Origin: Trichobilharzia szidati
Lineage: Eukaryota; Platyhelminthes; Trematoda; Strigeidida; Schistosomatidae
DNA length: 64,000 nucleotides
Direction of reading: 5' to 3'
Assembly: GCA_944472155.2 (NCBI GenBank)
Contig: OX235272.1
Location: 90,960,020 to 91,024,019 of the forward strand
The notes below the pieces were generated by a model, which was given only the letters and a program-made list of their open reading frames with translations, was not told where the DNA came from and ran no database searches. Below are positions 1 to 60,900 of the stretch, piece after piece. A program made the position numbers and the translations under genes. Positions within the stretch are counted from its first letter, which is position 1. Each line of letters starts with the position of its first letter.

Positions 1-236
1 TGTGCTATCAGTGTGATGGTGGTTTACTGGTAACATACTCGCTAGCAACGCATGTGATCTGGGTTCGATTCCCGTTCAATGGATTCCTAGACCTCACCTA
101 GTTTACTAGCCTACTGTTGGCTCAAAAAGAGGGAAGATTGCGCGTGAGGTTAGCGATGCCATGCCACATAAAAACAACCGCTACTGTGACTTGAAAAATT
201 TAATGCCTTATGTTCCATTCCTAGAGTAAAGAAAGT
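1..236 (+). mobile_element. SINE-A copy 1 (tRNA head plus RTE-derived body), diverged
   Basis: A tRNA-like head with a B-box-like GGGTTCGATTCCC (about 54-66) is followed by a body with AAGAGGGAAGATT and GCGTGAGGTTAGC. It ends in CCTTATGTTCCATTCCTAG, the same order of blocks as the younger copies at 16.9 and 36.4 kb. The stretch from CACCTAGTTTACTAG onward also matches the 5' end of the RTE LINE at 39.5-42.8 kb. The start may lie left of the window. Confidence 0.65.
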
Positions 237-281
237 TTTAGAAAATGTTCTTCATATGATGTTCCTTTTTAATTTTATTCC

Positions 282-505
282 TTTGTGTTCCGGGTGAAAC
301 GCAGAGCTTCAAGCTATAGCTTTGAAGTCTCTGTAGCAGTGGTGTTTATTTTTGCCGGGTGGGCTCTGCTAGCCTCATGCCCAGCCTTCCCTCTTTATGG
401 GCTTTATTATCAGTTGAATGAGGTTTAGGAGTACGTTGGCCGAGGACTGAACCCTGGATCACGTGAGGCATGGATGGTGAGCATTCCCCCACTGAACCAC
501 CGACT
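282..505 (-). mobile_element. SINE-A copy 2, diverged
   Basis: Read on the minus strand this has the tRNA-like head (ending near 505), the GGGAAGGCTGGGCATGAGG block, and the 3' tail related to GAAGCCCTATGTTCCACTGG. It is clearly diverged, and the B box (about 445-455) is damaged. Confidence 0.6.
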
Positions 506-2214
506 TACAGTCATTCGTATGACTGAGTTGTTTATTCAACGAATACATAAATCATTTGTACGCTAACTTTTACTCCTAATCACTTAGCCTCTGACCAGTT
601 GTCAATTATTTTTTTGTTTCAGAAAGTATTCAGTGATAAATTTATTTGATTGACAGATTTTTGTTGTAGAATTGAAATTTGTAGTCATTGAGTTATCGGT
701 GTAGTTCAGTCAACTTAGTATCTGACCTTAACTAAAGGCATGAAAATAGTTCAGTGAGGCGAAATTAGCAAAGCCAATTGATTGATGGAATGTGGACATA
801 AGGTGTGAATGCTTTACAGTATACAAAAAGCTTTGGCTTTCTTATTTCGATGGTTAAATCTTCAGTGATATGGAAAGGTGGTGGACATAGAATAATTTGT
901 AAAAGGAAGACATATGGGATAAAAATGACCTCTTCGTGTCCACGTAGGGTAGCATTCGTGAGCCATGTTGAACGGCCGATGTACTTCACACACACAAACA
1001 CACATAAATTTGGTCAAATGGGTGATCTTGTTTTTTTGAATCACTTAAAAGTAATGGCCAACTGGAAAATATTATTTTTAGAGATTCTGCAACGAATATC
1101 CTTTACGGACGTTGTGAAGTCCTCCTTTTTATCGTATTAGCAGTTAGGTCACTTGCAGGTCCATACATAGAATTTTCTTGGGTGCATAAGACAAGTCACA
1201 TTTCGTAGGTTATGAAGAGTGCACGAAAGCCACTTTTGATCAGGACTTTTCTTATGGGATTAAACTCTTCTTTTAGGGCATCAAGGCTGCATATACGTCC
1301 CATTCAAGTGGAGAGTGATTGAACCATCTGTCTTTTGAAACGAATGATTGGGCAGCTGTGGAGAATTTTCAGATAACCATTCCATAATAGTTTTCTATGA
1401 ACCAATCTTCACATGCTTTCATTGCTCCTTTCTGATATTTTCATATCAATAACGAAACTTTTAGACTAGTTCTCCATTTCAAGTGTGAATTTTATCTCCA
1501 GACAGCTGATAGTTTTTGAATTTAATCTGTGATTCAAGTCTCAACTGCCATCATAAATAATGAAAGTGTATATCGCATACCTTTTACGCAATTGGCAACC
1601 CTTAGAATGCAGAGTTATTGAACGAATATATGTAAAAAATGTACATAAATGTGTACGTATATCTAGAGTAAATAAAGTTGCTGAAAGCGGTCTTTTCCAC
1701 TGAATTAGGTGTCTTCTTTCCCAAGACGTCTTAATACGGACTTTCCATGAATAGTTTCCACGACTACTAGAAGTGTGAAACTCAAAAAGGTATATCTAAT
1801 AGGATTACTGAGTGTTCAACCGAAAACCTATTCTGCAGTTTACTTCAATTAATAATTGTGACAATAAATCTTTTTGAATCTTTTACTTATAATAGTACGA
1901 TTAATTATCTAGATAGATAACTGTTTATTAATCAAGTCATGTTACTATATTTCCATAGATGAAAATCAAATATATTTCATGTGTTTAAATTGTTGTATGT
2001 TGTCAGCTGAATGACTGGCTGACTTTCCAAAGTAGAACTTTTCACAACAGTTTAAGTAGTTGCCACACTGCGTATAACACACAAAGTAGAGAAACGGGAA
2101 AAGCCAAAAGAACTCCAATGAACGTATATGTACGACAGAAAGAATAACTAAGCGGAGAGTAATGAGGATTCTATGAATCTAGGAGTTTCATAAAGAGAGA
2201 GTAAATACATCAGC
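506..2214. other. No gene recognised
   Basis: AT-rich sequence with only short ORFs lacking recognisable motifs and a short CA-rich run at 990-1005. I see no exon, RNA gene or named repeat here. Confidence 0.5.
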
Positions 2215-2520: not shown

Positions 2521-3079
2521 ATTACTCACCGCATTATAAAATCTAACACAGGAGACAGAACACAAAGACATTTGGTCAAAAACAGTCTCGTGACTCATAT
2601 GAGATGGTTGTAGGATTGCACTGACAATAAACATTCCTTTTGTATTCTGTAAAAATACATTTTGAGGCTAATAATGGTAACAAGTCAAGTGTGAGGAATA
2701 TCTTCTGGAGAATATAACTGAATGCTCAAGCGAATATTCAGGAGGGATAAATCATGTGATAACTAAATGATAACGTTTCGAAAAGTGGGGTAATAGCAGA
2801 TGTAGAGAAGCTATACATGTAACAATAATTAAATAGAACCAAAAGTTTAATATGAAAATCTTACTTGGTTTTGATATGACAAAATAAATGTGGTGTATTG
2901 CTTTCGAACGCAAAGAACAGATCCATAATCGTGAATCGCCATAAGTTAACTTATAGAAAAGTGGAGTAGTCTCATTTATTTAACATGATGTCGGGGGACC
3001 CTATAGGTCTCGAAGCTCCTGATGCTCAGATATTACAAGATGCACCAGATTACAGCTATTAGTTCACATTTTCTTGCAC
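2521..3079. other. No gene recognised
   Basis: AT-rich spacer between an RTE scrap and a Penelope-like fragment. Nothing recognisable. Confidence 0.4.
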
Positions 3080-4875
3080 ACGGATTAACTAAACTGGGGA
3101 TACCTGATGCAACTCGGTTGACCAGATGTCCAATTTAGTAACTCAGCTGATAAATACTACTTCTAGTAGCAGATTACAGCGCAGTGTAGTGACAAAACAT
3201 GCCTCAACTCGTTTCAGCACAAAGTTGCACGTTGGCTTGCACAGAAATCGGAACTCATTCGTCAACAACGGTTAGCTGTGTGCACCATGAAAGATTCATT
3301 CCATTTCACCGAAAGCTTGAACCCCATAAATGTTTCCAGTATTTTCATGGTATCACTTGATGTGACATCCTTGTTCGCAAAGACCCCAGTCAGTGTAACT
3401 ATCGATATCATTTGTCGACATTCTGATCTTCTCCTATCGCTAGTGACAGAATCCAAACGCCCATTGCCAATGTGTACCGTGGTTGTACAACTCCAGTTTG
3501 ACAACACTCTTTACTGTCAAATAGTTCACTTGGCCGTAGTTTAGCAGACGTCTTTATGTCCAACCTTGAGGGAACAAAGTTAAAGCCTGCAGTCGACGTT
3601 CTACCTACTTGGATTATTCAATGACAAACAAGCAAATACTGAATTTATTATGGGACATGAAAATGATGAAAATTCCTATTTCCTTAACATTGCTATGCAA
3701 CGCCTGGAAGATGGAAGTTTACAGACTTTTTTTAACGAAAGCCTACATGGGATAGACATTACTTACATTTTAATAGTTTTTGTCCAAATATCTATAAAAC
3801 AGTACTGGTCAAAACTGCATTTTATGAAGCCACAAGTATTTTAGAGGAATAATTTCTGGTTCTTGAATAGATGTTGAAAAATGACGGCTTTCCTCAGAAA
3901 TCCATTTACAAATACGACAGATACAAATGTGACAATATTGCAGAAATATTAAAGAAAAGATTGGATACCTCACTAGGCAGAGTCTATCCTGCAGCTACGT
4001 TGGTTCCAGGTTATCGGACAACATGCTGTTTGGTATAATCGAAGGTCCACAGAAACCTTTCTCGTGTTAACTTTAACTATGTATACAGATTGATATGTAT
4101 CTGCTGTGGCGGTTACATTGAGAGAACAGAAAGAAGGGTATACGTTCAGTTTTCTGAGCATGCACATAAAAGCCTAAGTCTCAAGGTAACAAACGCTTAC
4201 AATAGTGCCATTGTCAGACGTCACCTTGATACAGGTTTTAAAGTAGACATTAGGAAATCCTTTAAAATCATCAGTAGACACAATAGCTCAATTCTCCTCA
4301 AGTTTGCTTAAGCAATAGCTATCAAACACCTGGAACTTGATTTATGTGTTCAAAAAGAAGCAGTTATCAGTCTTTCCTTTCCCTGATAACTGGATGTCTC
4401 TACTCTCGTTTTCACTTTGTTAAGTCATATTCGTCTGTAACCCTACCCCTTCACTATAACCTAACTTTACTTGTCTTTTAATTCTGATTTGTATTGAACT
4501 CACTAAATTATCACCCAGTTGATTAGATACTCTTCATCCTACTTACCTCTTATCCATATTAGGTAACTCTTTTGCCATTCTACCCAAGCATTTATTTTTG
4601 TTTAAACTTGAATTCCTTGAGTAGAAGCTATGCAAGTGTAACATCCAAGCACTGTTTATCAAGTATGGAGTCTCCTGTCAACTGACGCTGTGTAACATTT
4701 GCATGTATGTTGAAAAAATTGTCCTGTATATAAACTTAATCATTTCTTTAGGCTGTACTCAGCTGGATGAAAAGCCAACGAAATAAATGCTTAGCACCAT
4801 GTTATTCTGCACAGACTGTTGTTCTTGCTTTAAATCAAATTCATAAAGGGGAATAAGTGTATGAAGTTTCTGATG
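3080..4875 (+). mobile_element. Penelope-like element, family 1, decayed
   Basis: Frames broken by stops spell out a Penelope-type reverse transcriptase and its GIY-YIG endonuclease. FMVSLDVTSLF lies near 3345-3380, FLNIAMQRLEDGSLQ near 3680-3725, and HFNSFCPNIYKTVLVK near 3765-3815 in another frame. The endonuclease end (4090-4385) has a CGGYIERTER block where YIGRTER is expected, then KSFKII, SSILLKFA and DLCVQKEAVISLS, shared with the copy at 19.29-19.49 kb. From 4745 the sequence matches the outer inverted-repeat arm at 19.64-19.74 kb, so the element's terminal repeat seems to be included. It is a pseudo-copy; the 5' limit is approximate. Confidence 0.75.
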
Positions 4876-8836: not shown

Positions 8837-9020
8837 GTGCGTCGGTAGCACAGTACTTAGGACTCCTGCCGACCATGCACATGGTCCGGGGTTCGATTCT
8901 CTGCAGACGCACACCTGATATCTATGGTCGGCCTGCAAAATTGGGCTACCAATTTCATATGCTGAAAATTCCATACTTCTACCAAAAGAAATACTGTGTG
9001 GTTTCCAACTCTAATCAAAA
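8837..9020 (+). mobile_element. SINE-B copy 1 (tRNA-Gly-like head, LINE family 1 tail)
   Basis: The head GTGCGTCGGTAGCACAG and the B box GGGGTTCGATTC match the SINE-A head. The body (CACCTGATATC, TATGGTCGGCCTGC, GGGCTACC) and the tail (ATGCTGAAAATTCCATAC, then ATACTGTGTGG) differ from SINE-A. The tail resembles the 3' end of the CR1/Jockey LINE copies in this window. It is inserted in the 3' end of a Penelope-like element. Confidence 0.75.
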
Positions 9021-9029
9021 TCAATAAAT

Positions 9030-9074
9030 GTAGAAACTTATGAAGAGGAAATAATCGAGAATATTCTTCGTTCA
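9030..9074 (+). ncRNA. Hammerhead-like RNA motif at PLE family 2 terminus, degenerate
   Basis: GTAGAAA is followed by CTTATGA (canonical CTGATGA with one change), a 13-nt spacer, GAGA in place of GAAA, then AGAATATTCT and CGTTC. Same layout as 13123-13170 but with core substitutions that should abolish activity. Confidence 0.4.
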
Positions 9075-9475: not shown

Positions 9476-10243
9476 CTTTGTCATGGATTCGTGGACAGTG
9501 CTCTTTACCTTTCAGTGAATATGCAGCTGGTACTTTCAGCTTCTGATTTACATTATAAAAGAATTGGTGATTATCTAAGAAGTAACTGGCATCCTCTGAC
9601 AAGTCACGCAACAGCTCCCTACAAGATCTAAGATTATAATATGGATTGAATGATGTCATAATGACTGATACCGTTATATGATATTCCACAATTGTTTCTT
9701 CCATTGTGGAGCAATAATTAGCTTAATAAAAGCGTTAACAGTCAGAAGAGGAAATAATAATACTGATATCTGAATAAAAGCTTTTAAAACTATTTGTTAT
9801 ATTGTTGATGATAAAATAAAAGTGTTCAATTGTTGGTTTGGCACTAGTACTGATCACCGATTACTTCTCATCCCCAGATCCCACACAAATAAAGAAAGTA
9901 GACAGACTAGTCCATGGCGGTGAGAACAATTCAATTTTACCATGCAAAAATACATTATACACAAATAATACCTACCTTGAAAAACTAAACCAACAAATAA
10001 ACAATTATATTAGTTGCATAAGGTCGGGTTTCAAGGTTTCCCAATAGCGCTGTAATAAATAATCTATCTTAGCTCAATAAGTTGATTTGTCCAAACTGTT
10101 TTCCGCCTGTCTAAGCCTATTTTATCTAGTGTGAGTCTGTATGAGCTGGTGTTAGCTGCTTCCTATCCGTATTGTAAGGTGCAGTCCTTTATTCGACAGG
10201 TAACCACAACTAAAAGTTACGATGTACTTTTTTATTCTTTTTT
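9476..10243. other. No confirmed gene; one isolated 69-codon ORF
   Basis: An open frame at 9838-10047 (+) starts MALVLITDYFSSPD and contains GGENNSILPC. I recognise no family, and no splice or promoter context supports it. The rest is AT-rich. Confidence 0.3.
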
Positions 10244-10474
10244 TATTCCTTTAAGTTCCCAGTGGAACACATTGGCTTCAAGCTAGAGGCTTGAAGTTTC
10301 TGTAACAGTGGTGTTTATTTTTACAGGATGTAACTTCTAGCCTCATGCCCAACCTTCCCTCTCTACCAGTCTTATTACTGGCTTAGCGAGGTAAAGTAGT
10401 GCGTCGGCCGGTGATCCAACCCCGGACCATGTACATGGTTGGGCAGCATCCTAACCGCTGTTCGACCGACGCAC
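10244..10474 (-). mobile_element. SINE-A copy 3
   Basis: Minus-strand tRNA-like head GTGCGTCGGTCGAACAGCGG ends at 10474. The GAGGGAAGGTTGGGCATGAG body block and the TGTGTTCCACTGGGAAC 3' tail near 10250-10275 follow. Confidence 0.8.
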
Positions 10475-11460
10475 CACGATGTACTTGCTCATACTCTATT
10501 TAGTGTAGCATTGTTTGAATCTGTGATTTCATGATTAAAGGTCCAATGTCAGAAACAATACATCATTTATTTTGTCTAAATCTAGTCCTAATCAATAGTA
10601 TTATTCTATTGTGAGACGGCATAAGCCTTTAAAATATATCTCATTTTCTGTGAGGCTACTTATATGGGTTTTGAATACAATGAAGCTTGGATTTAAGGTT
10701 TCCTATTTCTTCACAAAATTATTCTCAATTCAACCGTATATAGACAGTGATGAGTTCTGTTTTTGGGAAACCATACACATCGGTGTAATTAATTCACCGA
10801 TAAATACCTCATAATCACAATTTCTTGTAAGAAAACGTAACACAAGATGAATATATTTCAATATGTTGATACCTAAGAGCCAACATATACTTATTCAGTC
10901 ATGTAGAAGCAGGGTGGAACAAGTGAAGATTTAATATATAAGAATCACAACTGTCTCGTGTTAACTGGACTTAACGCTACAATTAATTAGTCCTAGTAGT
11001 AGCGTTATATTTGATCAAACCGCCAATATCTTTTTTTAGAAAATATGCAGTGTTAGTTCAATAAGAAGCAGTGTAGGCGAATCATCACTACCACCTACAT
11101 GAAATATCTAAGGTTCATTTGAGTTACTAATTTTATCTTAGAAGAATATGCATTATGTATTGATTACATCATCTAAAGATCAAGCAGAAAATTATCAACA
11201 TTTATCTGATTATAGAAAACTACTATTGACGTAGTAATCAAGTAAATAAAAAACGCATGAATCGTTTTCTGTCATGCAAAAAATTTCATAAAAACAAAAT
11301 GAATAAATATTAAATAGATATCTGATCTCTTAAATTAACTTTCACCATCTTTAAGAGTGTTCATCATCCTATTTATATTATAGCTGGGTGTACTTCATTG
11401 AATTGAGATATTATTGCGTTCCTGTTGATTCATTTTCACAAAGAATGAAGGTATCATCCA
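10475..11460. other. No gene recognised
   Basis: AT-rich, with short ORFs only. The segment 11230-11455 holds PLE-like phrases on the minus strand (for example SFCENESTGTQ), too short and broken to call. Confidence 0.35.
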
Positions 11461-12835
11461 TATTATTATTATTATTGTTTCCTTCAATTCCTAGAGGAAC
11501 ATAGGGCTTCAGCCGTGCGTCTCCATTGCCTTCGGTTCTCTGCTAGTGTCTTCACCTGGCTCCAAGTCTACCCACACGTTTTCATCTCCTCTTCACATGA
11601 CCTCCTCCAAGTCACCCTTGCACTGACGACCAACTCGCCGCTTCCCTTTCGGTTTCCACTCAAGGGCTTGTCTAGTGATGTCACTTGGTGGTTTCCTCAG
11701 AGTATGGCCAGTCCATCTCCATTTCTTCCTGCCTATTTGTTGCACAATTGGTTCCTGCTGGGTTGGTTCGCTCCCAGAGATCTCTGTTGCTGATCTTTTC
11801 TGGCCGGCCATCTGATCTTGAGTATTGAGCGAAGACAACTGTTAATGAAGGTCTGTAGTTTGTTTGAGGTGTTCTTCATGACGCGCCAAGTCTCTGATCC
11901 GTATAATAGCACTGACTTCACATTGGAGTTGAAAATTCGGATCTTATTTTTCATGTTACGCTGAGTGCTGTTGACCTCCACACAGACTTGAGAGTAGTGA
12001 AAGCTTGTCTTGCTTTTCCGATTCTTGCTTTGACATCCTCGTCAGTTCCGTCTGCCTGTAGTTGAAACGATGCTTCTCAGGTAGGTAAAAGAGGTTGTTT
12101 CTTTCAGATTCCTTCCATTTATGCTGATCGTTGTCTGTTGTTGTTGTTCGTGTCCAGGAATTTTCATTACCTCTGTTTTCTCTATGTTCACCTGAAGTCC
12201 TATCTTTGATGCTTCTTCTGCCAACTTGTTGCCTTTCGCTTGCATATCTTCCAGTTTGTGGGAAATCAGACGCATATCGTCGGCGAAGTCCAGATCCTCC
12301 AAGTTTTTTGTGTGAGTCCATTTTATGCCTGTTTCCTCATTCCCCGCTGTTTGTCGCATTATCCAGTTTACTGCAATCAAGAAAATCATTGGCGATAGTA
12401 GGCAGCCTTGTCTTACTCCTGTCCTCACTTCGAAGGATTCTGTAAGTTTCCCGTTTTGGATTACTTGGCATGCAGCATTGTCTTACAGCTGTTGGATGAG
12501 ATGTATTATTGTCGGTGGCAACCCGTAGTAGAGAAGTAGTTGCCAAAGCACCTCTCGATCGACGATGTCGAAGGCCTTTTCGAAGTCGATGAAGTTGAGA
12601 TAGAAAGGTGACTGCCATTCCAAGCTTTGTTCAGTGATAATCCATAATGTGGCGGTCTGATCAATGCATGACTTGTTTCTCCTGAATCCAGCCTGTTCCG
12701 GTCGAAGTTTTTCATCCTGGGCTTGTTTGATTCTCTCCAGGATGTTGCGGCTTAGTATTTTGCTTGGGATGGACAGCAGCATAATTCCGCGCCAGTTCTT
12801 GCATTGACTTAAGTCTCCTTTCTCACTCACTCTTT
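11461..12835 (-). mobile_element. RTE-type LINE (RTE-A family), 5'-truncated pseudo-copy
   Basis: Reading on the minus strand from 12835: CKNWRGIMLLSIPSKILS, LRPEQAGFRRNKSC, FIDFEKAFDIVDRE (palm A), TGVRQGCLLSPMIF, the catalytic FADDMRLISH, VNIEKTEVMKI, SVLLYGSETW and KWRWTGHTLRKP. These are the RT and C-terminal blocks of the RTE clade, in three frames separated by frameshifts. The 3' end is GAACATAGGGCTTC in reverse complement next to a TAA-type tail at 11461-11475. The endonuclease is absent. Confidence 0.85.
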
Positions 12836-15948: not shown

Positions 15949-16496
15949 GTGTAACTCCATTATGGATAAGATTTTATTTTGATAAATCACACAGTGTTAC
16001 ACAGTATTATTAACTGATGACGTTTCGAGCACAAATTATTGCTCATAATCATATCAAGTTACTCACACAACTTTTTCCTTCATTTATATATATGTATGGA
16101 ATTGACTAGATATTTGAATAAAAATCAATATGAGTGTTATTGATCAAATCAGAAGAGGATAATAAATAATCTCAAAATTCTATTTCAATTCAAGCAAATC
16201 ACAACATTCTAACAAGTTACTTATTATGACTATAAAAACACTCGTCTTATTTCCCATCTGATTGTATTTGATCAATAACACTCATATTATTTTCTCTGAA
16301 TGTACATTATCTCATATTGATTTTTATTCAAATATCTAGTCAATTCCATACATATATATAAATGAAGGAAAAAGTTGTGTGAGTAACTTGATATGATTAT
16401 GAGCAATAATTTGTGCTCGAAACGTCATCAGTTAATATTACTGTGTAACACTGTGTGATTTATCAAAATAAAATCTTATCCATAATGGAGTTACAC
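15949..16496. repeat. 186-bp inverted repeat with 176-bp spacer
   Basis: Arm 15949-16134 begins GTGTAACTCCATTATGG and is almost the exact reverse complement of arm 16311-16496, which ends CCATAATGGAGTTACAC. The spacer also holds shorter inverted pieces around TTGATCAATAACACTCA. Penelope-like elements are known for inverted terminal repeats, which fits the neighbouring GIY-YIG fragment. Confidence 0.85.
16388..16433 (+). ncRNA. Hammerhead-like motif in PLE inverted repeat (right arm)
   Basis: TTGAT can pair with ATCAG across the motif (helix I). GAGCA pairs with TGCTC (helix II) and is followed by GAAAC and GTC. The core is degenerate (ATGATTA for CTGANGA, plus one extra base). Helix III would be only AC/GU with no loop. 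The mirror copy is in the left arm near 16012-16058 on the minus strand. Confidence 0.35.
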
Positions 16497-16919: not shown

Positions 16920-16932
16920 TACACAATCCCCC

Positions 16933-17175
16933 GTGCGTCGGTGGCACAGCGGTTAGGACGCTCGCCGACTATGCACATGGTCCGGGGTTCGATCCCCGGC
17001 CGACGCAATACTTCAACTTGCTAAGCCAGTAATAAGACTGGTAAAGAGGGAAGGTTGGGCATGAGGCCAGCAACCCCATCCCGTAAAAATAAACTCTGCT
17101 ACAGAAACTTCAAGCCTCTAGCCTGAAGCCCTATGTTCCACTGGGAACGTGAAGGAATATTTCATTTTATTTATT
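16933..17175 (+). mobile_element. SINE-A copy 4, young, with 13-bp target-site duplication
   Basis: The head is tRNA-Gly-like. GCGTCGG and CCGACGC form a 7-bp acceptor stem, and the T arm is intact. The A box is TGGCACAGCGG (16942-16952) and the B box is GGTTCGATCC (16986-16995). The body has AAAGAGGGAAGGTTGGGC and GCCAGCAACCCCATCCCG, then GAAGCCCTATGTTCCACTGG and an AT-rich tail. TACACAATCCCCC flanks it at 16920-16932 and 17176-17188. Transcription by RNA polymerase III from the internal boxes is expected. Confidence 0.88.
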
Positions 17176-17364
17176 TACACAATCCCCCGTCTATCGACCT
17201 TTAACTGACCTGTAATACATTAGCACCTATTGTTCAGCATGATTGATCCACTGTTATTTATTTATCAATCACATAACTCCAAGAGTTAGTTTGTAGGGAT
17301 ATGATTTGCTTCAAGTTTCACCACGGATTGATATCAGTTAGAGAACCATTAAAAATCAGCAGGG

Positions 17365-17411
17365 AGTACTGGACAACTGTTTCGTCCTAGTTTGGGATTC
17401 ATCGGCGGCAC
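17365..17411 (-). ncRNA. Hammerhead ribozyme relic
   Basis: Minus strand: CCGATGA core variant, AATCCCAAACTAGGAC helix II region, GAAAC, AGTT loop, GTC and CAGTAC. Core U4 is changed to C, so it is probably inactive. Confidence 0.55.
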
Positions 17412-17522
17412 ACGACTTATTAGAAGTTAGAATTCATGGGCTATTTAATCGGCTACCAATAGCTGAATGGTTTGTGAGCTTACCTTGTAAACGGGACGTC
17501 CTAGATTCGAACTCCAGGTGGT

Positions 17523-17570
17523 GTGCACTGCCGATGAATCCCAGACCAGGACGATGCAGCTGTCCAGTAC
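17523..17570 (+). ncRNA. Hammerhead ribozyme relic
   Basis: GTGCACTG, CCGATGA core variant, helix II ATCCCAGACCAGGAC, GATG in place of GAAA, then GTC and CAGTAC. Degenerate. Confidence 0.5.
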
Positions 17571-17939
17571 TCCTTGTTGGTTTTCAACGGTTCACCAACT
17601 AATATCACTCCGTGGTCAAATTTGTAATAAATTATCTTTTAATGAATGTCTGATAGTATGTATATCATCATTGCATGTAGGGTTTTCAGTCCTACTGAAA
17701 TTTGATGAATCTACTAAATCCTGCTTTATTAACATTGTTACTTGTTTTAAATTTGTGTCGGGAAATAAAATGTACTCAATATATGTGGGAACAAAAAGAA
17801 ATAAGAGGAAGAATAATTTCCTTTCCATCATTAATTCTGAAACATTTAAGATATCTATTTATTTTTAATTCAGTTTAGATTTTCCCCCTTTGACTTACTG
17901 GACTGAAATGTTCGGCTTGTGTTGAATTAGAAAAACAAA

Positions 17940-26485: not shown

Positions 26486-34768
<8,283 letters not shown>

Positions 34769-36412: not shown

Positions 36413-36636
36413 GTGCGTCGGTGGCACAGTGGTTAGGACGCTTGCCGCCCATGCACATGGTCCGGGGTTCGATCCCCGACCGACGCACTCCTTTACCTCG
36501 CTAAGCCAGAAATAAAGAGGAAAGGTTGGGCATGAGGCTAGCAACCCCACCCTGTAAAATTAAACACTGCTACAGAAACTTCAAGCCACTAGCTTGAAGC
36601 CCTATGTTCCACTGGGGAACGTGAAGAAAAAAAATC
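36413..36636 (+). mobile_element. SINE-A copy 6, young
   Basis: Head GTGCGTCGGTGGCACAGTGG with B box GGTTCGATCC and matching acceptor-like ends (GCGTCGG/CCGACGC). The body has GGAAAGGTTGGGCATGAGG and GCTAGCAACCCCACCC. The tail CTTGAAGCCCTATGTTCC ends in an A-rich run. Well preserved. Confidence 0.87.
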
Positions 36637-39531: not shown

Positions 39532-39543
39532 TAGGGTACATAT

Positions 39544-42500
39544 TATTATTATTATTGTTCCCTTGGGTTCCTAGTGGAACATAGGGCTTCAACTGCACGC
39601 CTCCACTTGCTTCTGTCTTCTGCTGTTCTTTTCACTTGCGTCCATGTTATTCCATACTGTTTCATCTCCTCCTCACACGATCTCCTCCATGTCACCCTTG
39701 GACGTCCCACTCGCCGCTTCCCTTTCGGGTTCCATTCGAGCTATGGCCTGACGCGCGATGTCACCCAGCGGCCTCCTCAGCGAGTGTCCAATCCATCTCC
39801 ACTTCCTCCTGCATATTTGTTGGGCGATTGGTTCCTGTTTCGTTTGTTCCCATAGCTTCTTGTTTGTGATTCTTTCTGGCCATCTAATCTTCAGTATGGA
39901 GCGAAGACAGTTGTTGATAAAGGTCTGCAACCTGTTGAAAATATTCTTGGTGACCCACCAAGTTTCTGATCCGTAAAGCAAAATTGACTTCACGTTTGTA
40001 TTGAAAATCCGAATTTTGTTGTTGATGGTGAGTGACGAAGATTTCCAGATTGGTTTCAGGTTGATGAATGTGTTTCTCGCCTTCCCGATTCTCGATTTGA
40101 CATCCTCGTCCGTTCCTCCTGTGGTTGAGACAATGCTCCCTAGATAAGTGAAAGAAGTAACCTCTTTCAAATCCCTCCCGTTGATGGTGATTGGCACTGG
40201 ATGTTGCTGATGCTGTTGTTGGTTGGTTATTTTCATAACCTCCGTCTTGTCTATGTTCACCTGGAGTCCTGTCTTCTCTGGCTGCTTCTTCGACCAGTTT
40301 ACCGGTTTTCGCTTGTAAGTCTTCGATTTTGTGTGACATCAAACATAAATCATCCGCAAAATTCAGGTCTTCTAGGTTCTTCACGTCGGTCCAGGATATC
40401 CCTGTCTTCTCGTTTCCCACTGTCTGACGCATAATCCAGTCCACCACAATTAGGAATATCATTGGTGATAATAAGCACCCTTGTCTGACTCCTGTGTTTA
40501 CTCCAAACATCTCGCTGAGTTTTCCGTTGTGGATCACTTGACATGTGCCGTTGTCGTACAGTTGTTGAATAAGGTTGATGAATATTTGGGGTACGCCGTA
40601 GTACTCGAGTAGTTTCCAAATTACTTCGCGGTCAACGCTGTCGAAGGCCTTCTCAAAGTCTATGAAGTTGAGGTAGAGATTTGATTGCCATTCCATGCTT
40701 TGTTCGATGATAATGCGTAGAGTTGCAATTTGGTCAGAACATGATTTGCCTTTCCTGAATCCAGCTTGTTCTGGTCGGAGTTCTGTATCCAGTGCGTCCT
40801 TGATTCTCTCCAGGATGATGCGACTCAGGATTTTACTTGGCGTCGACAGGAACATGATTCCTCGCCAGTTCTTGCAGAGTCCCAGGTCGCCCTTCTTTGG
40901 TAGTTTCACCAGGTAACCTTTCCTCCAGTCAGTAGGCACCTTTCCCTCTTTCCAGATCTTTTGCAATAATGGAGTCAGCATATCTGCCGTCGTTTCTGGG
41001 TCCGCTTTCAGTGCTTCCGGGGGTATTCCATCTGGTCCAGCTGCTTTTCCAGCTTTCAGAAGCTTGATTGCATTCATGACTTCAGTTTTCGTTGGAGGAT
41101 TGGTGTCAACTTGCAGTTGTGTACGCGCTGTTGTTGGTATTACCGGACGGGTTGTAGGTGGTGGTCGGTTCAAGAGTCCTTTGAAGTGGTCCGCCCATTG
41201 TTTAATCTGTCTTTCTTCTTTGGTAATTGGGTTCCCTTGGCTGTCTTTTATAGATTTCACTTGTGTTGATCTCTTCCCGGATAGAGACTTGGTTATCTGA
41301 TATAGTGTCCTCAGGTCCCTTTTGCCTGCTGCCTTCTCAGCTTCAGTAGCCAGGTTGTCGTAGAATTGTCTTTTGTCCTTCCTGGCACTCTTCTTCACTT
41401 CTTTGTCCAGTGCTGTGTAAGTTGAGTTCAGCGTCTCTTTCTCTTGTCCATCTTTGCATTGAATCATTTTCTCTTTCACTTTTCTCCTCTCCTCTATTAG
41501 TTTCCAAGTGTCTGTTGAGAGCCATTCCTTGTCTTGTTTCTTCTTTCTTCCTAAAACCGTTGAGCACGTTTCGTTGAAAATTACCTTCAGAGAGTTCCAA
41601 TGGTCTTCCACGGATGATTCCTCAGTGGTGCCACGTAGTGTTTCCTGCTTTGCTCTGACAGTTGCAGTGAAAATGTCCTGTGTGATTGTGTCCTTCAGTT
41701 TGTGAGTGTTGAACTTGCATTGTGGCCTATCCCCAGGTATCCTCGAGGCTTTCAGCTTCACCTTGAAAGTCCCTTGTACCAGATAGTGGTCTGAACCGAC
41801 ATCTGCTCCTCTCCTCGATCTTGTGTCCAGTAGGCTCCGTCTCCACTTCCTTGAGATTGAAATGAAGTCTATCTGGTTTTTGGTGTGTCCATCTGGTGAA
41901 ATCCATGTTGCCTTGTGTATATCCCTGTGTTTGAACACACTGCCACCAATCACCAAATCATTGAAGGCGCAAAAGTCTGAGAAGAGTTCACCATTTTCGT
42001 TCATTTCACCGAGGGCCTCACGACCCATGGTGAGTTCTCTTCCTGTATTGTCTCCTCCCAGTTTCGCATTCATGTCGCCCATCAGGATTTTGATATCGCT
42101 CTTTGGGACGTTGTCCATTACTGTTTGTAGTTGACTGTAGAAGTCCTCCTTCTTCTCATGTTCTGAGGCGTTTGTAGGCGCGTAGCACTGAATGATTGTA
42201 ACCTTTTTTCCTTTTGAGTTGAACCTGGCTGTCATTATCCTGGAGGAGATTGATTCCCACTGCATGAGAGCTTTAGCCGCTGTTGGTGACATCATGATGG
42301 CTACTCCCTCGGTGTGCTCGTGATCGTCCTCTGGGTGACCGGAGTAGATTATTGTCTCTCCAGTTGATAGTTGGCTCCTTCCACATCCGTTCCATCTGCT
42401 CTCGCAGATTCCCAACACTTCTATTCTATATCTCCTCATTTCTGCGGCTACCTGAGCAGCCTTCCCAGCTTCGTACATTGTACGAACATTCCACGTCCCC

Positions 42501-42771
42501 ATCCTTATTTTCGCTTTCATCGAAAGAAGGCACATCGGCTGACTGGCTTCCCGAAGGCTTTCACCAGCCCGCGTCATTTCACTTCCCCGATTCCAGCGAA
42601 AAATAAGGTCACTATTTGTAATTTTAGAATCTTGAATATATTTGTGCGTTGAAGTTTTAGTAGCAATTTGGTTAAGTTTTGGGGGTGGAGTTGCTAGCAC
42701 CACGCCCCAACCCTCCCTCTTTATCCGGGCTTGGGACCGGCTAGAATACTAGTGACCTAGTAATCTAGGCG
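39544..42771 (-). mobile_element. Near-complete RTE-type LINE (RTE-A) with 12-bp target-site duplication
   Basis: 3228 bp flanked by AGGGTACATATT at 39532-39543 and 42772-42783. One reading frame (likely ATG at 42577) carries an apurinic-type endonuclease with WNVR, CESRWNG, GDMNAKLGG and GSDHYLV. The reverse transcriptase follows with AGPDGIPPE, EQAGFRKGKSC, NFIDFEKAFDSVDRE, GVRQGCLLSP and FADDLCLMSH. A single frameshift near 40280, after VEEAA, shifts the C-terminal region (DKTEVMKI, LLYGSETWW, KWRWIGHSLRRP) into another frame that ends at 39673. The 3' tail is TAA repeats. The 5' end matches the SINE-A body. Apart from the frameshift it looks recent. Confidence 0.9.
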
Positions 42772-42783
42772 AGGGTACATATT

Positions 42784-54932: not shown

Positions 54933-57900
54933 CACCATATAGTTTCCAGACACCCTTTTTAACATGAGAAACAAATGAATGGACAAATATGGATGTATTA
55001 GTGCAACAAGAAACGAGATCTTTTTATGACATGGACCATTTCCTCACTATTATTCATCTTCAATCGAACTCTAGCACTGAATTAACCATACCACCTAAAA
55101 CATGGAAGCAATGTATATAAAACAAGGAGTTTCGTGGTTGTTGTCATCACTATCACTAATTTGGACTCAAAAACAGGAAGACTGTCGTTATAAATGGACA
55201 CTTTCTATGAGGAAGGAACACTGCCACGTGTACATTCAAACAATAAAGTTGTGCCTCATATACCATTTCACACTTTGTGTTGATTAGACCATTTGTAATT
55301 CATTGAACTGCTCTACGTTTTTGCCTGAATGTACGTTTCTGTTAACTGCAAGCTACATTGTGTTCAGTCATTGTGTTCTTGGTATTCGGATGCCTGATGA
55401 CCTCATAACTGAAGATTTGCACCTTCGTCTTTCAGCTAAACGTCCTTCAGAAGAAGGCTCAGATTCCATTTCCACAGATATTGTTTACGCCCAGAATATA
55501 CAGCAAAAATTCAAAAGATAATCCAAAGAGTACATTACTCGTCCGAACCAAAATTGCAGAACTTTTATGAATGACCAAACCAAATCAAAGAACGTGACGT
55601 TACATTCACCGTAAGAATAACACTCCGAAGATACGAGCTCTCAGTCTGCCACCAAAATCCGGAACGAAACCAAATTGTTCCAGGTAGAGTTATAGTAAAA
55701 CAAAATCTGCCGAAGAAACTGCAAGATTGAATGTTTTCGTCACGAGCTGACATCAGTTAGAGAGTGATTAATAATAATTTATTTCTGGAACAGAAACCAG
55801 CCATTTTTACAGGCATGAACAAATGTACACTAATTAGAACTTATAGAATATATATGATTTGTTAATCTAGAAATAGATTGAATACTGGTAAATTTGAGAG
55901 AAATATTTAAAAAGAAATGTACAAATAAGGCAATAGGTAATTTTCGAGATATGCTTTCAACTGAATAATTCATGAGAAATAGCATCAAATCAAAACTGTA
56001 ATTGAAAAAAAATACGGTATGTCAATTTCACGCGGGAATTATAAACGATTACGTTAATTGTGGAAGGTAAGTAGCATTTTTGTACAGGTGCTGGCGTGAA
56101 ATATAAGAGATGCGGAATGAACAGTAATTGTAAGTAAATGATTCATAGAGTGTTTGAAAGTCCATAAAACTTCAAATTCACCGGTAAGTACACCATAATT
56201 GTGACATTTCCAGTTGTATATGAGACCAACTTTGAACTTGTCGGCAGATTTCATGATAGAGGTGGTTCCGTTATTCACCAGGTGGGCTAGCAATATTCCG
56301 AGGATAGCGGCACTGTTTCAGTACCTTCGTTTAAGGCAGTACCTTTGAAAAGAGAAGAAGACACAAGGAAACCGACAGAGAGGTGCAGAAGTATATAATA
56401 GGTGTTAATAATTCAAAACATATGTAAAAAACATGGGTTCATCATTTTTTTGTTTTTTCTTCATTTAAAAAATACTATTTCCCCCTGAGATTTTCTAGTG
56501 ATGGAATTCTAGTCTTTCTTGCGAAAAGAAAATAAAAGTTTAAGTGAAAAAAAGATGATAATTTTACCTACTTATATAGGTTGAATAGGAGTTAAACACA
56601 AAAGTCAAAGTGCGTGAACTATGTAGAAGAAAAGCGAGGGCTTAATAATAACTACTGTTTTTCTGAAGTATACATTTAGGTGTCCTTCTGAAGTAGGGGA
56701 CTCATACCATGTACTTGCATTCGAGGAGTTTGTTATTTAAACTTCAGCTTTAGGCAAATTTTCAACTTCTGTTGTCTTTTTTTTAAATTTTATTTATTCT
56801 CTTATTCTGCAGAAGCCATTCGAACTCAGGAGCCTTAGCAATAGAGTGCTGTCCCACAGATAAGGGTGGTTCTCATATGTCCCCACCATCATATCCGCTG
56901 ACTAGCAATCACCATATAGTTTCCAGACACCCTTTTTAACATGAGAAACAAATGAATGGACAAATATGGATGTATTAGTGCAACAAGAAACGAGATCTTT
57001 TTATGACATGGACCATTTCCTCACTATTATTCATCTTCAATCGAACTCTAGCACTGAATTAACCATACCACCTAAAACATGGAAGCAATGTATATAAAAC
57101 AAGGAGTTTCGTGGTTGTTGTCATCACTATCACTAATTTGGACTCAAAAACAGGAAGACTGTCGTTATAAATGGACACTTTCTATGAGGAAGGAACACTG
57201 CCACGTGTACATTCAAACAATAAAGTTGTGCCTCATATACCATTTCACACTTTGTGTCGATTAGACCATTTGTAATTCATTGAACTGCTCTGCGTTTTTG
57301 CCTGAATGTACGTTTCTGTTAACTGCAAGCTACATTGTGTTCAGTCATTGTGTTCTTGGTATTCGGATGCCTGGTGACCTCATAACTGCAGATTTGCACT
57401 TTCGTCTTTCATCTAAACGTCCTTCAGAAGAAGGCTCAGATTCCATTTCCACAGATATTGTTTACGCCCAGAATATACAGCAAAAATTCAAAAGATAATC
57501 CAAAGAGTACATTACTCGTCCGAACCAAAGTTGCAGAACTTTTATGAATGACCAAACCAAATCAAAGAACGTGACGTTACATTCACCGTAAGAATAACAC
57601 TCCGAAGATACGAGCTCTCAGTCTGCCACCAAAATCCGGAACGAAACCAAATTGTTCCAGGTGGAGTTGTAGTAAAACAAAATCTACTGAAGAAACTGCA
57701 AGATTGAATGTTTTCGTCACGAGCTGACATCAGTTAGAGAGTGATTAATAATAATTTATTTCTGGAACAGAAACCAGCCATTTTTACAGGCATGAACAAA
57801 TGTACACTAATTAGAACTTATAGAATATATATGATTTGTTAATCTAGAAATAGATTGAATACTGGTAAATTTGAGAGAAATATTTAAAAAGAAATGTACA

Positions 57901-60900
57901 AATAAGGCAATAGGTAATTTTCGAGATATGCTTTCAACTGAATAATTCATGAGAAATAGCATCAAATCAAAACTGTAATTGAAAAAAAATACGGTATGTC
58001 AATTTCACGCGGGAATTATAAACGATTACGTTAATTGTGGAAGGTAAGTAGCATTTTTGTACAGGTGCTGGCGTGAAATATAAGAGATGCGGAATGAACA
58101 GTAATTGTAAGTAAATGATTCATAGAGTGTTTGAAAGTCCATAAAACTTCAAATTCACCGGTAAGTACACCATAATTGTGACATTTCCAGTTGTATATGA
58201 GACCAACTTTGAACTTGTCGGCAGATTTCATGATAGAGGTGGTTCCGTTATTCACCAGGTGGGCTAGCAATATTCCGAGGATAGCGGCACTGTTTCAGTA
58301 CCTTCGTTTAAGGCAGTACCTTTGAAAAGAGAAGAAGACACAAGGAAACCGACAGAGAGGTGCAGAAGTATATAATAGGTGTTAATAATTCAAAACATAT
58401 GTAAAAAACATGGGTTCATCATTTTTTTGTTTTTTCTTCATTTAAAAAATACTATTTCCCCCTGAGATTTTCTAGTGATGGAATTCTAGTCTTTCTTGCG
58501 AAAAGAAAATAAAAGTTTAAGTGAAAAAAAGATGATAATTTTACCTACTTATATAGGTTGAATAGGAGTTAAACACAAAAGTCAAAGTGCGTGAACTATG
58601 TAGAAGAAAAGCGAGGGCTTAATAATAACTACTGTTTTTCTGAAGTATACATTTAGGTGTCCTTCTGAAGTAGGGGACTCATACCATGTACTTGCATTCG
58701 AGGAGTTTGTTATTTAAACTTCAGCTTTAGGCAAATTTTCAACTTCTGTTGTCTTTTTTTTAAATTTTATTTATTCTCTTATTCTGCAGAAGCCATTCGA
58801 ACTCAGGAGCCTTAGCAATAGAGTGCTGTCCCACAGATAAGGGTGGTTCTCATATGTCCCCACCATCATATCCGCTGACTAGCAATCACCATATAGTTTC
58901 CAGACACCCTTTTTAACATGAGAAACAAATGAATGGACAAATATGGATGTATTAGTGCAACAAGAAACGAGATCTTTTTATGACATGGACCATTTCCTCA
59001 CTATTATTCATCTTCAATCGAACTCTAGCACTGAATTAACCATACCACCTAAAACATGGAAGCAATGTATATAAAACAAGGAGTTTCGTGGTTGTTGTCA
59101 TCACTATCACCAATTTGGACTCAAAAACAGGAAGACTGTCGTTATAAATGGACACTTTCTATGAGGAAGGAACACTGCCACGTGTACATTCAAACAATAA
59201 AGTTGTGCCTCATATACCATTTCACACTTTGTGTCGATTAGACCATTTGTAATTCATTGAACTGCTCTACGTTTTTGCCTGAATGTACGTTTCTGTTAAC
59301 TGCAAGCTACATTGTGTTCAGTCATTGTGTTCTTGGTATTCGGATGCCTGGTGACCTCATAACTGCAGATTTGCACTTTCGTCTTTCATCTAAACGTCCT
59401 TCAGAAGAAGGCTCAGATTCCATTTCCACAGATATTGTTTACGCCCAGAATATACAGCAAAAATTCAAAAGATAATCCAAAGAGTACATTACTCGTCCGA
59501 ACCAAAGTTGCAGAACTTTTATGAATGACCAAACCAAATCAAAGAACGTGACGTTACATTCACCGTAAGAATAACACTCCGAAGATACGAGCTCTCAGTC
59601 TGCCACCAAAATCCGGAACGAAACCAAATTGTTCCAGGTGGAGTTGTAGTAAAACAAAATCTACTGAAGAAACTGCAAGATTGAATGTTTTCGTCACGAG
59701 CTGACATCAGTTAGAGAGTGATTAATAATAATTTATTTCTGGAACAGAAACCAGCCATTTTTACAGGCATGAACAAATGTACACTAATTAGAACTTATAG
59801 AATATATATGATTTGTTGATCTAGAAATAGATTGAATACTGGTAAATTTGAGAGAAATATTTAAAAAGAAATGTACAAATAAGGCAATAGGTAATTTTCG
59901 AGATATGCTTTCAACTGAATAATTCATGAGAAATAGCATCAAATCAAAACTGTAATTGAAAAAAAATACGGTATGTCAATTTCACGCGGGAATTATAAAC
60001 GATTACGTTAATTGTGGAAGGTAAGTAGCATTTTTGTACAGGTGCTGGCGTGAAATATAAGAGATGCGGAATGAACAGTAATTGTAAGTAAATGATTCAT
60101 AGAGTGTTTGAAAGTCCATAAAACTTCAAATTCACCGGTAAGTACACCATAATTGTGACATTTCCAGTTGTATATGAGACCAACTTTGAACTTGTCGGCA
60201 GATTTCATGATAGAGGTGGTTCCGTTATTCACCAGGTGGGCTAGCAATATTCCGAGGATAGCGGCACTGTTTCAGTACCTTCGTTTAAGGTAGTACCTTT
60301 GAAAAGAGAAGAAGACACAAGGAAACCGACAGAGAGGTGCAGAAGTATATAATAGGTGTTAATAATTCAAAACATATGTAAAAAACATGGGTTCATCATT
60401 TTTTTGTTTTTTCTTCATTTAAAAAATACTATTTCCCCCTGAGATTTTCTAGTGATGGAATTCTAGTCTTTCTTGCGAAAAGAAAATAAAAGTTTAAGTG
60501 AAAAAAAGATGATAATTTTACCTACTTATATAGGTTGAATAGGAGTTAAACACAAAAGTCAAAGTGCGTGAACTATGTAGAAGAAAAGCGAGGGCTTAAT
60601 AATAACTACTGTTTTTCTGAAGTATACATTTAGGTGTCCTTCTGAAGTAGGGGACTCATACCATGTACTTGCATTCGAGGAGTTTGTTATTTAAACTTCA
60701 GCTTTAGGCAAATTTTCAACTTCTGTTGTCTTTTTTTTAAATTTTATTTATTCTCTTATTCTGCAGAAGCCATTCGAACTCAGGAGCCTTAGCAATAGAG
60801 TGCTGTCCCACAGATAAGGGTGGTTCTCATATGTCCCCACCATCATATCCGCTGACTAGCAATCACCATATAGTTTCCAGACACCCTTTTTAACATGAGA

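Follow-up and report, generated by a model that had tools for sequence, protein, structure and literature searches.

A SINE of Trichobilharzia szidati with a tRNA-like head combines both ends of an RTE LINE, its LINE-derived part beginning at or next to a predicted twister ribozyme cut

The SINE Bov-tA carries a tRNA head. Its partner is an RTE LINE (BovB), on which its movement depends (PMC8620236), and flatworm SINEs have been said to derive from RTE elements (PMC1291365); as far as the cited accounts go, both have an RTE partner in common with SINE-A, the family of short elements described here. R2 SIDEs and the trypanosomatid NARTc, RIME and SIDER elements are nearer parallels than Bov-tA and BovB, in that they keep a LINE 5′ ribozyme block together with the LINE 3′ end. 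The R2 SIDEs of Drosophila are internally deleted and consist of these two parts (Eickbush and Eickbush 2012, PMC3414825), the same arrangement of ribozyme block and 3′ end with the middle gone that SINE-A has, and the tRNA and snRNA stretches seen at the 5′ ends of R2 were interpreted in that paper as template jumps. R2 differs from RTE1, the partner LINE identified here, in its insertion into rDNA and its HDV-like ribozyme (PMC3774820), and the sections of the SIDE paper drawn on here (PMC3414825) mention no SINE that has both a tRNA head and a disabled ribozyme. In trypanosomatids, L1Tc/NARTc, ingi/RIME and SIDER likewise have a LINE 5′ ribozyme block, Pr77, in short internally deleted partners, and loss of ribozyme activity has been reported in some cases (PMC4035085). 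Unlike the SINE-A block, Pr77 is HDV-like and doubles as a promoter, and the cited sections of that account describe no tRNA head.

Twister ribozymes at RTE 5′ ends have been mentioned in a single sentence, as work 'in preparation' (PMC7761336), and twister variants have been described in LINEs of S. mansoni (Liu et al. 2021 NAR). RTE1 agrees with these twisters, as far as the two sources present them, in ribozyme class, LINE group and place; the present analysis adds the SINE, the trace that the cut position has left in the genome, and LINEs that carry a tRNA-like head. The schistosome SINEs Sm-alpha and Sj-alpha resemble SINE-A in being tRNA-related and linked to a ribozyme, and differ from it in that the ribozyme is a hammerhead and the head tRNA-Gln-like (PMC2770079). 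On that published description, rather than by sequence, we set them apart and rejected the identity of SINE-A with Sm-alpha. A hammerhead as a part of SINE-A was also rejected, the hammerhead matches of the window lying outside the SINE-A copies. In our searches of an open-licence library we recognised no SINE with a LINE-derived twister. Published accounts thus cover a twister in LINEs of schistosomes and, in flatworms, SINEs that derive from RTE elements; the link between them through SINE-A did not turn up in these searches.

The window, the whole stretch of 64,000 nt of T. szidati DNA analysed here (contig OX235272.1, positions 90,960,020 to 91,024,019), holds six SINE-A copies, at 14 (+), 510 (−), 10474 (−), 16933 (+), 28497 (−) and 36413 (+); the sixth body, at 14-238, was detected solely with the body block as query. 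The full-length copy at 16933 is laid out as follows.

16920..16934, plus strand: left target-site duplication, TACACAATCCCCCGT, a 15-nt perfect match to 17176-17190
16933..17175, plus strand: SINE-A copy S16933, full length, from sequence matches and genome relatives
16935..17007, plus strand: tRNA-like head containing an A-box-like motif, TGGCACAGCGG, and a B-box, GGTTCGATCC, both identified in the window consensus
17008..17014, plus strand: 7-nt linker, ATACTTC in S16933 and CTCCTTT in a 30-copy consensus
17015..17113, plus strand: RTE 5′ block, a twister remnant and a downstream hairpin, homologous to RTE1 42776-42649
17026..17041, plus strand: changed catalytic hairpin (P4/L4), CCAGUAAUAAGACUGG against CCGGUCCCAAGCCCGG in the LINE
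17043..17072, plus strand: the 30 nt with the highest conservation among the six window bodies, AAAGAGGGAAGGTTGGGCATGAGGCCAGCA, mean pairwise identity 0.88
17124..17157, plus strand: RTE 3′ tail with hairpin GUUCC-ACUG-GGAAC, 29/34 to RTE 39591-39558
17176..17190, plus strand: right target-site duplication, pairing with the left copy at 16920..16934

The other five copies lie on both strands.

14..238, plus strand: oldest SINE copy, S14, with a diverged head; CCTCACCTAGTTTACTAG corresponds to the P2-P3 region of RTE1 at 16/18 positions
272..510, minus strand: old SINE-A copy with head; a target-site duplication was looked for and none seen
10240..10474, minus strand: SINE-A copy S10474 with head and an exact 11-nt target-site duplication
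28296..28497, minus strand: SINE-A copy with head; a target-site duplication was looked for and none seen
36413..36632, plus strand: SINE-A copy S36413 with head and a 12-nt target-site duplication with one mismatch

Target-site duplications were present in three of the five window copies tested and reached at least 8 nt in 12 of 30 genome copies, and full-length genome copies of the S16933 type were up to 96% identical (5,455 first-look candidates, 40 scored), so that SINE-A has both the target-site duplications and the many dispersed copies of a SINE. All six window bodies have heads, that of S14 being diverged, and no headless SINE was found in the window when body pieces were used alone as queries. 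A second SINE family combines the SINE-A head with another body (CACCTGATATCWATGGTCGGCCTGC...) at 8837-9060 (+) and 38391-38203 (−); heads and bodies seem to have been swapped between SINE families.

Type I hammerhead matches are scattered over both strands of the window (15454, 17366, 17525, 18045, 18618, 18960 and 22467); two of these seven fall short of the gathering score, and some form inverted pairs (e.g. 17301-17413 with 17523-17635). The window also contains an inverted repeat with 186-nt arms that are 99% complementary (15949-16134 and 16311-16496). On its right side a 29-nt match recurs every ~1977 bp (55697, 57674, 59651, 61628, 63606), a spacing that points to a long-period tandem array; Tandem Repeats Finder, run for periods up to 500, reported nothing at 55697-63606.

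The SINE-A head carries B-box and A-box-like motifs in the window consensus, in which TTTT is absent, and the S16933 head scored 23.8 bits against the Rfam tRNA model, below the gathering score of 29. ARAGORN at default settings detected no tRNA, neither in the window as a whole nor among five heads; at an 80% threshold it called these heads Val once and Gly twice, with no call for two. The boxes fit the tRNA-like character of the head originally proposed, the two tRNA searches fall short of it, and the assignment to Gly is insecure. The 7-nt linker resembles a Pol III 3′ trailer, from which we infer a putative Pol III RNA.

That the SINE body matches both the 5′ end and the 3′ end of an RTE LINE in the window was confirmed, in the form of two colinear blocks ~3 kb apart in the LINE. 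In S16933 the 5′ block is identical to RTE 42742-42649 at 68/94 positions (E 4e-11), and the match of the 3′ tail has an E value of 6e-6. With a 5-body window consensus, the 5′ block scored 43 against RTE1 42742-42649 (reverse complement 11; 300 dinucleotide shuffles, mean 13.9, maximum 24) and the 3′ block scored 34 against RTE1 39591-39540 (reverse complement 12; 300 dinucleotide shuffles, mean 12.2, maximum 17), both in the order and on the strand of RTE1. The two blocks with one large gap that the original prediction expected from aligning a SINE consensus to the RTE were thus obtained, here with a 5-body consensus and a single RTE copy (RTE1) rather than an RTE consensus. This two-block match supports the proposed fusion of an internally deleted RTE to a tRNA-like head, and the partner LINE is identified as the RTE copy at 42776-39540 or one closely related to it. 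SINE-A retains both LINE ends in colinear order with the middle gone, as a SIDE does, and, as in tRNA-derived SINEs, its 3′ tail is common to the partner LINE.

The homology with the RTE 5′ end starts at about 42776, not 42771, according to the twister register and the genome-wide LINE ends. The register of the SINE 5′ block was taken from the twister model, through S10474, and from the old copy S14, which matched the RTE 5′ end at a level reached by 3 of 1,000 shuffles (32 of 1,000 when the RTE was taken in full). Taken by itself, the SINE junction, in four versions of 20-24 nt, resembled RTE1 no more than chance allows. At the other end, the helix of the 3′ hairpin is paired in 97.5% of cells across eight sequences, a value equalled by shuffles, and in none of its pairs have both bases changed. 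As a non-autonomous partner of this RTE LINE, SINE-A is made up of a tRNA-like head, a U-rich linker, the first ~128 nt of the LINE and the LINE 3′ tail, and its LINE-derived part begins at or next to the predicted twister cut point. The partner LINE and its relatives in the window have these features.

39540..42776, minus strand: partner LINE RTE1, with a twister at the 5′ end, an EN-RT frame and an (AAT)n tail
39567..39580, minus strand: RTE1 3′ hairpin
39884..42703, minus strand: reading frame of 939 aa for the RTE endonuclease and reverse transcriptase, with a shift close to its end
42707..42781, minus strand: type-P1 twister match at the RTE1 5′ end, 52.3 bits
51750..53550, plus strand: RTE2, an older partial copy with a degenerate twister (12.3 bits, E 6.1)
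11459..12803, minus strand: RTE3, a 5′-truncated copy

RTE1 has the endonuclease and reverse transcriptase, the short 3′ UTR and the simple repeat tail of RTE-clade LINEs; its name rests on this structure and on the original prediction. The closest relative of its protein is from Trichobilharzia regenti (91% identical), which together with the type I hammerheads of the window most likely indicates a fluke of the avian-schistosome kind. None of 23 stretches examined in viral contigs was confirmed as an RTE relative. Frames resembling those of LINEs were also met in sequences catalogued under bacterial names (Breoghania, Acidobacteria and others); host contamination is the probable cause.

The twister match at the RTE1 5′ end had an E value of 5e-11 in a short scan and 7.9e-9 across the whole window; the Rfam gathering score of 67.2 was reached neither by RTE1 nor by a second LINE with an EN-RT frame, which is encoded by the minus strand of L001, a contig catalogued with a bacterial MAG, and has a twister just 5′ of its frame (63.9 bits). 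An HDV-like ribozyme was considered for the 5′ block and rejected, the Rfam match being to twister. The pseudoknots T1 and T2, a cut 5′ of a conserved adenine and a dispensable P1 are given as twister features in the cited account (PMC5408937). RTE1 has P2 (4/4 pairs), P4 (4/4), T1 (3/3, CCC/GGG), T2 (2/2, GC/GC) and the cut dinucleotide, a full set that RTE2 lacks. The predicted cut falls between 42777 and 42776, and the bases upstream of 42776 are flank. When folded freely, RTE1 formed P2, P3 and P4 (z −2.8; 3 of 200 shuffles folded equally well), and the L001 twister region folded no better than its shuffles (z 0.02). No twister was found in the other 10 of 11 loci scanned, which were taken irrespective of whether they contain an element 5′ end, and the intact twister pattern was absent from viral contigs.

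We located LINE starts across the genome assembly (1.11 Gb in 907 contigs) with a pattern that required an exact 16-mer and barred G at its first, distant letter, obtaining 1,833 places against none with the reversed pattern. Among the 100 listed of these, AACC directly followed variable flank in 81 (73 of 90 after similar flanks were merged), ACC with a different first base in 10, and neither in nine. Information per column was 0.08 bit at −1 and rose to 1.16, 1.60 and 1.67 bits at +1 to +3. Most listed LINE 5′ ends coincide, to the nucleotide, with the predicted twister cut U^AACC, a position derived from alignment to the twister consensus. The linker CTCCTTT stood at the junction in none of the 100 listed starts (two were loosely flagged by the automatic search, neither at the junction by eye). 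A separate set of 28 LINE ends was skewed to the word CCCTCGCC, the usual start being AACCTCGCC, and was therefore left out of the boundary determination; in this skewed set the GTCCCAAGCC loop was intact in 19 ends and changed in nine. The target duplications of three LINE copies (L042, L071, L072) reach 5-7 nt into the element, ATTCACTCCCACCCTC being one example. A reading of the 12-nt duplication of RTE1 as a sign of 5′ truncation was dropped, since such overlapping duplications recur and are better accounted for by brief matches of the target with the end of the element, suggesting that the LINE 5′ junction is sealed through base matching of the target with the LINE end. Internally deleted LINEs also occur: in L067-L069, copies of one locus, RTE 2-113 is joined to 2691-3236.

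The tRNA-like head was not limited to the SINE. The B-box joined to the unchanged loop GTCCCAAGC had 17 matches in the genome and none for the reversed control, and 15 of these have a SINE-type head, a similar linker and an RTE 5′ end with the unchanged loop, which overturned the view that the head is confined to the SINE; the remaining two are an RTE without a SINE-A head (L081) and an unrelated match (L079). Five of the 15 continue into a long LINE body (L082, L083, L084, L094 and L095, the last interrupted), whereas in the other 10 the 5′ piece is short and is preceded by antisense RTE, which in six cases directly adjoins the head; L085-L087 appear to represent a single locus in several copies. 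The length of the linker preceding AACC differs by a few nucleotides (CTCCT, CTCTTT, CTCCTTT, CCTTTTT). Two heads occur in L080 and also in L090, where the first ends in CTCCTTT and the second follows it without a gap. Column 21 of the head is T in 12/15 LINE heads and C in 28/30 SINE heads. The presence of the head on 6/6 SINE bodies, set against the linker at 0/100 LINE starts, gave a Fisher p of 6e-10, one window being compared here with a genome list. Another LINE frame, L001:58-3270 (+), has a tRNA match of 30.8 bits upstream and is possibly a second headed LINE.

SINE-A is, we think probably, an internally deleted RTE that was joined to a Pol III tRNA-like RNA at a ribozyme-made end and amplified after the ribozyme had been lost. 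The twister would trim the LINE RNA, whose cleavage is predicted here, to 5′-AACC. During target-primed reverse transcription, whose start the 3′ hairpin would serve, the enzyme would sometimes jump from this end to a Pol III tRNA-like RNA ending in CUCCUUU and so produce headed copies, of which an internally deleted one would give rise to the SINE. A tentative alternative, to which we give well under an even chance, is that the LINE is natively headed and that its twister normally removes the head, SINE-A then being an internally deleted uncut LINE made with no template jump; the ribozyme would have been lost in the SINE just as in the template-jump proposal. A native head would account for the 15 headed LINE ends with an unchanged loop, five of them with a long body, and for the tendency of LINE heads to a type of their own at column 21, but it sits poorly with the 100 listed starts that have no linker at the junction. 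The variants of the linker before AACC also count against it, being what jumps to RNAs with U ends of uneven length would leave, although slippage in the T run could do likewise.

We examined what remains of the twister in the SINE bodies. The L4 loop reads AAU where T1 requires CCC (five bodies), T1 retains one of three pairs, counting wobble, in all five window bodies scored, and the T1 pseudoknot of a twister is not found; in S16933 the P4 stem of the changed hairpin is kept and its T1 partners are gone. The GTAATAA loop was present in 30/30 genome copies, one of which is S16933 itself and all of which were chosen as nearest to it, so that the sample is not neutral. P2 is complete (4/4) in four bodies and 3/4 in S16933, while two of the five bodies have a complete P4 (4/4), in one pair of which both bases differ from those of the LINE; in the other three P4 is lost. 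The twister-P1 model aligned S10474 in the LINE register (14.7 bits, E 0.64) and had no hit in S16933 or S14. Across the six window bodies, conservation was lowest in the 5′ half of the twister (0.51) and highest in the 30 nt that follow it, where the value was matched by 1 of 2,000 column permutations. Through these substitutions SINE-A has lost T1 bases that the majority of LINE copies retain and that are presumably required for the cut, perhaps because cutting would remove the element's own promoter.

Inverted LINE copies bear on the part of the 5′ block that was kept. In the skewed set, 16 of the 28 LINE ends are inversions with antisense RTE joined to a LINE 5′ end, resembling twin priming, and in 15 of these 16 the sense 5′ piece ends at nt 128-162, the SINE block ending at nt 128. 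As the query was RTE 1-132, the lower edge of this range is partly set by it and shorter pieces were possibly missed, whereas the upper edge is free. Junction overlaps in the inverted copies (L047-L066) were 0-5 nt. Six copies have a common junction at RTE nt 2600 (CCCTC) but differing outer flanks, which looks like a microhomology hotspot, and the outer flanks of 15 comparable copies contain no similar pair, so that the copies appear to have arisen separately. The common end point could also be due to an A-rich stretch at nt 128-162. The closeness of these ends to the end of the SINE block is in line with a need of the RTE protein for the 5′ block, the conserved remainder of which may be a putative binding site for that protein.

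In the template-jump proposal, the join of head and LINE would rebuild a twister cut site, CUCCUUU^AACC, between the Pol III promoter and the body, and on a headed element a functional ribozyme would separate the promoter from the body; spread together with the head would therefore be open only to lineages whose ribozyme is defective. Breakage of T1 would free the promoter-bearing RNA to be copied whole. Loss of the ribozyme may thus have been a condition for the birth of the SINE, the rest of the 5′ block being kept because the RTE protein would need it in the second half of integration; we put this forward with caution, at a little below even.

It is unlikely, by comparison, that the SINE twister decayed by drift in an old SINE in which the ribozyme never mattered. 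Decay did occur elsewhere, RTE2 likewise lacking T1 and nine of the 28 LINE ends having a changed loop, and the loop of S16933 did not diverge from RTE1 clearly faster than its surroundings (6/16 positions in the P4/L4 hairpin, 20/78 in the rest of the block). Drift is harder to reconcile with the strong conservation of the next 30 nt and with the loss of T1 in all five bodies scored and the 30 nearest genome copies, which, being common to every copy scored, is likely older than their spread. More doubtful still is that the SINE ribozyme remains active as a twister variant and removes the head from part of the RNA. The changed loop may leave some activity, variant twisters being known, among them those published for S. 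mansoni LINEs (Liu et al. 2021 NAR, as far as cited), and P2 and P4 are retained in S10474, as are the U-A dinucleotide at the cut and the greater part of the UAAA strand; the single T1 pair of three and the heads retained by all six window bodies speak against it. Chance similarity or common low-complexity sequence is barely conceivable, as neither block was reached by 300 shuffles.

The origins of SINEs are usually argued from their 3′ tails. In the present case the LINE 5′ end is marked with single-nucleotide precision by a ribozyme motif, and headless LINEs, headed LINEs and headed SINEs occur in one genome, with the joint at the predicted ribozyme cut. This makes the birth of a SINE, and the need for ribozyme breakage in it, directly testable.
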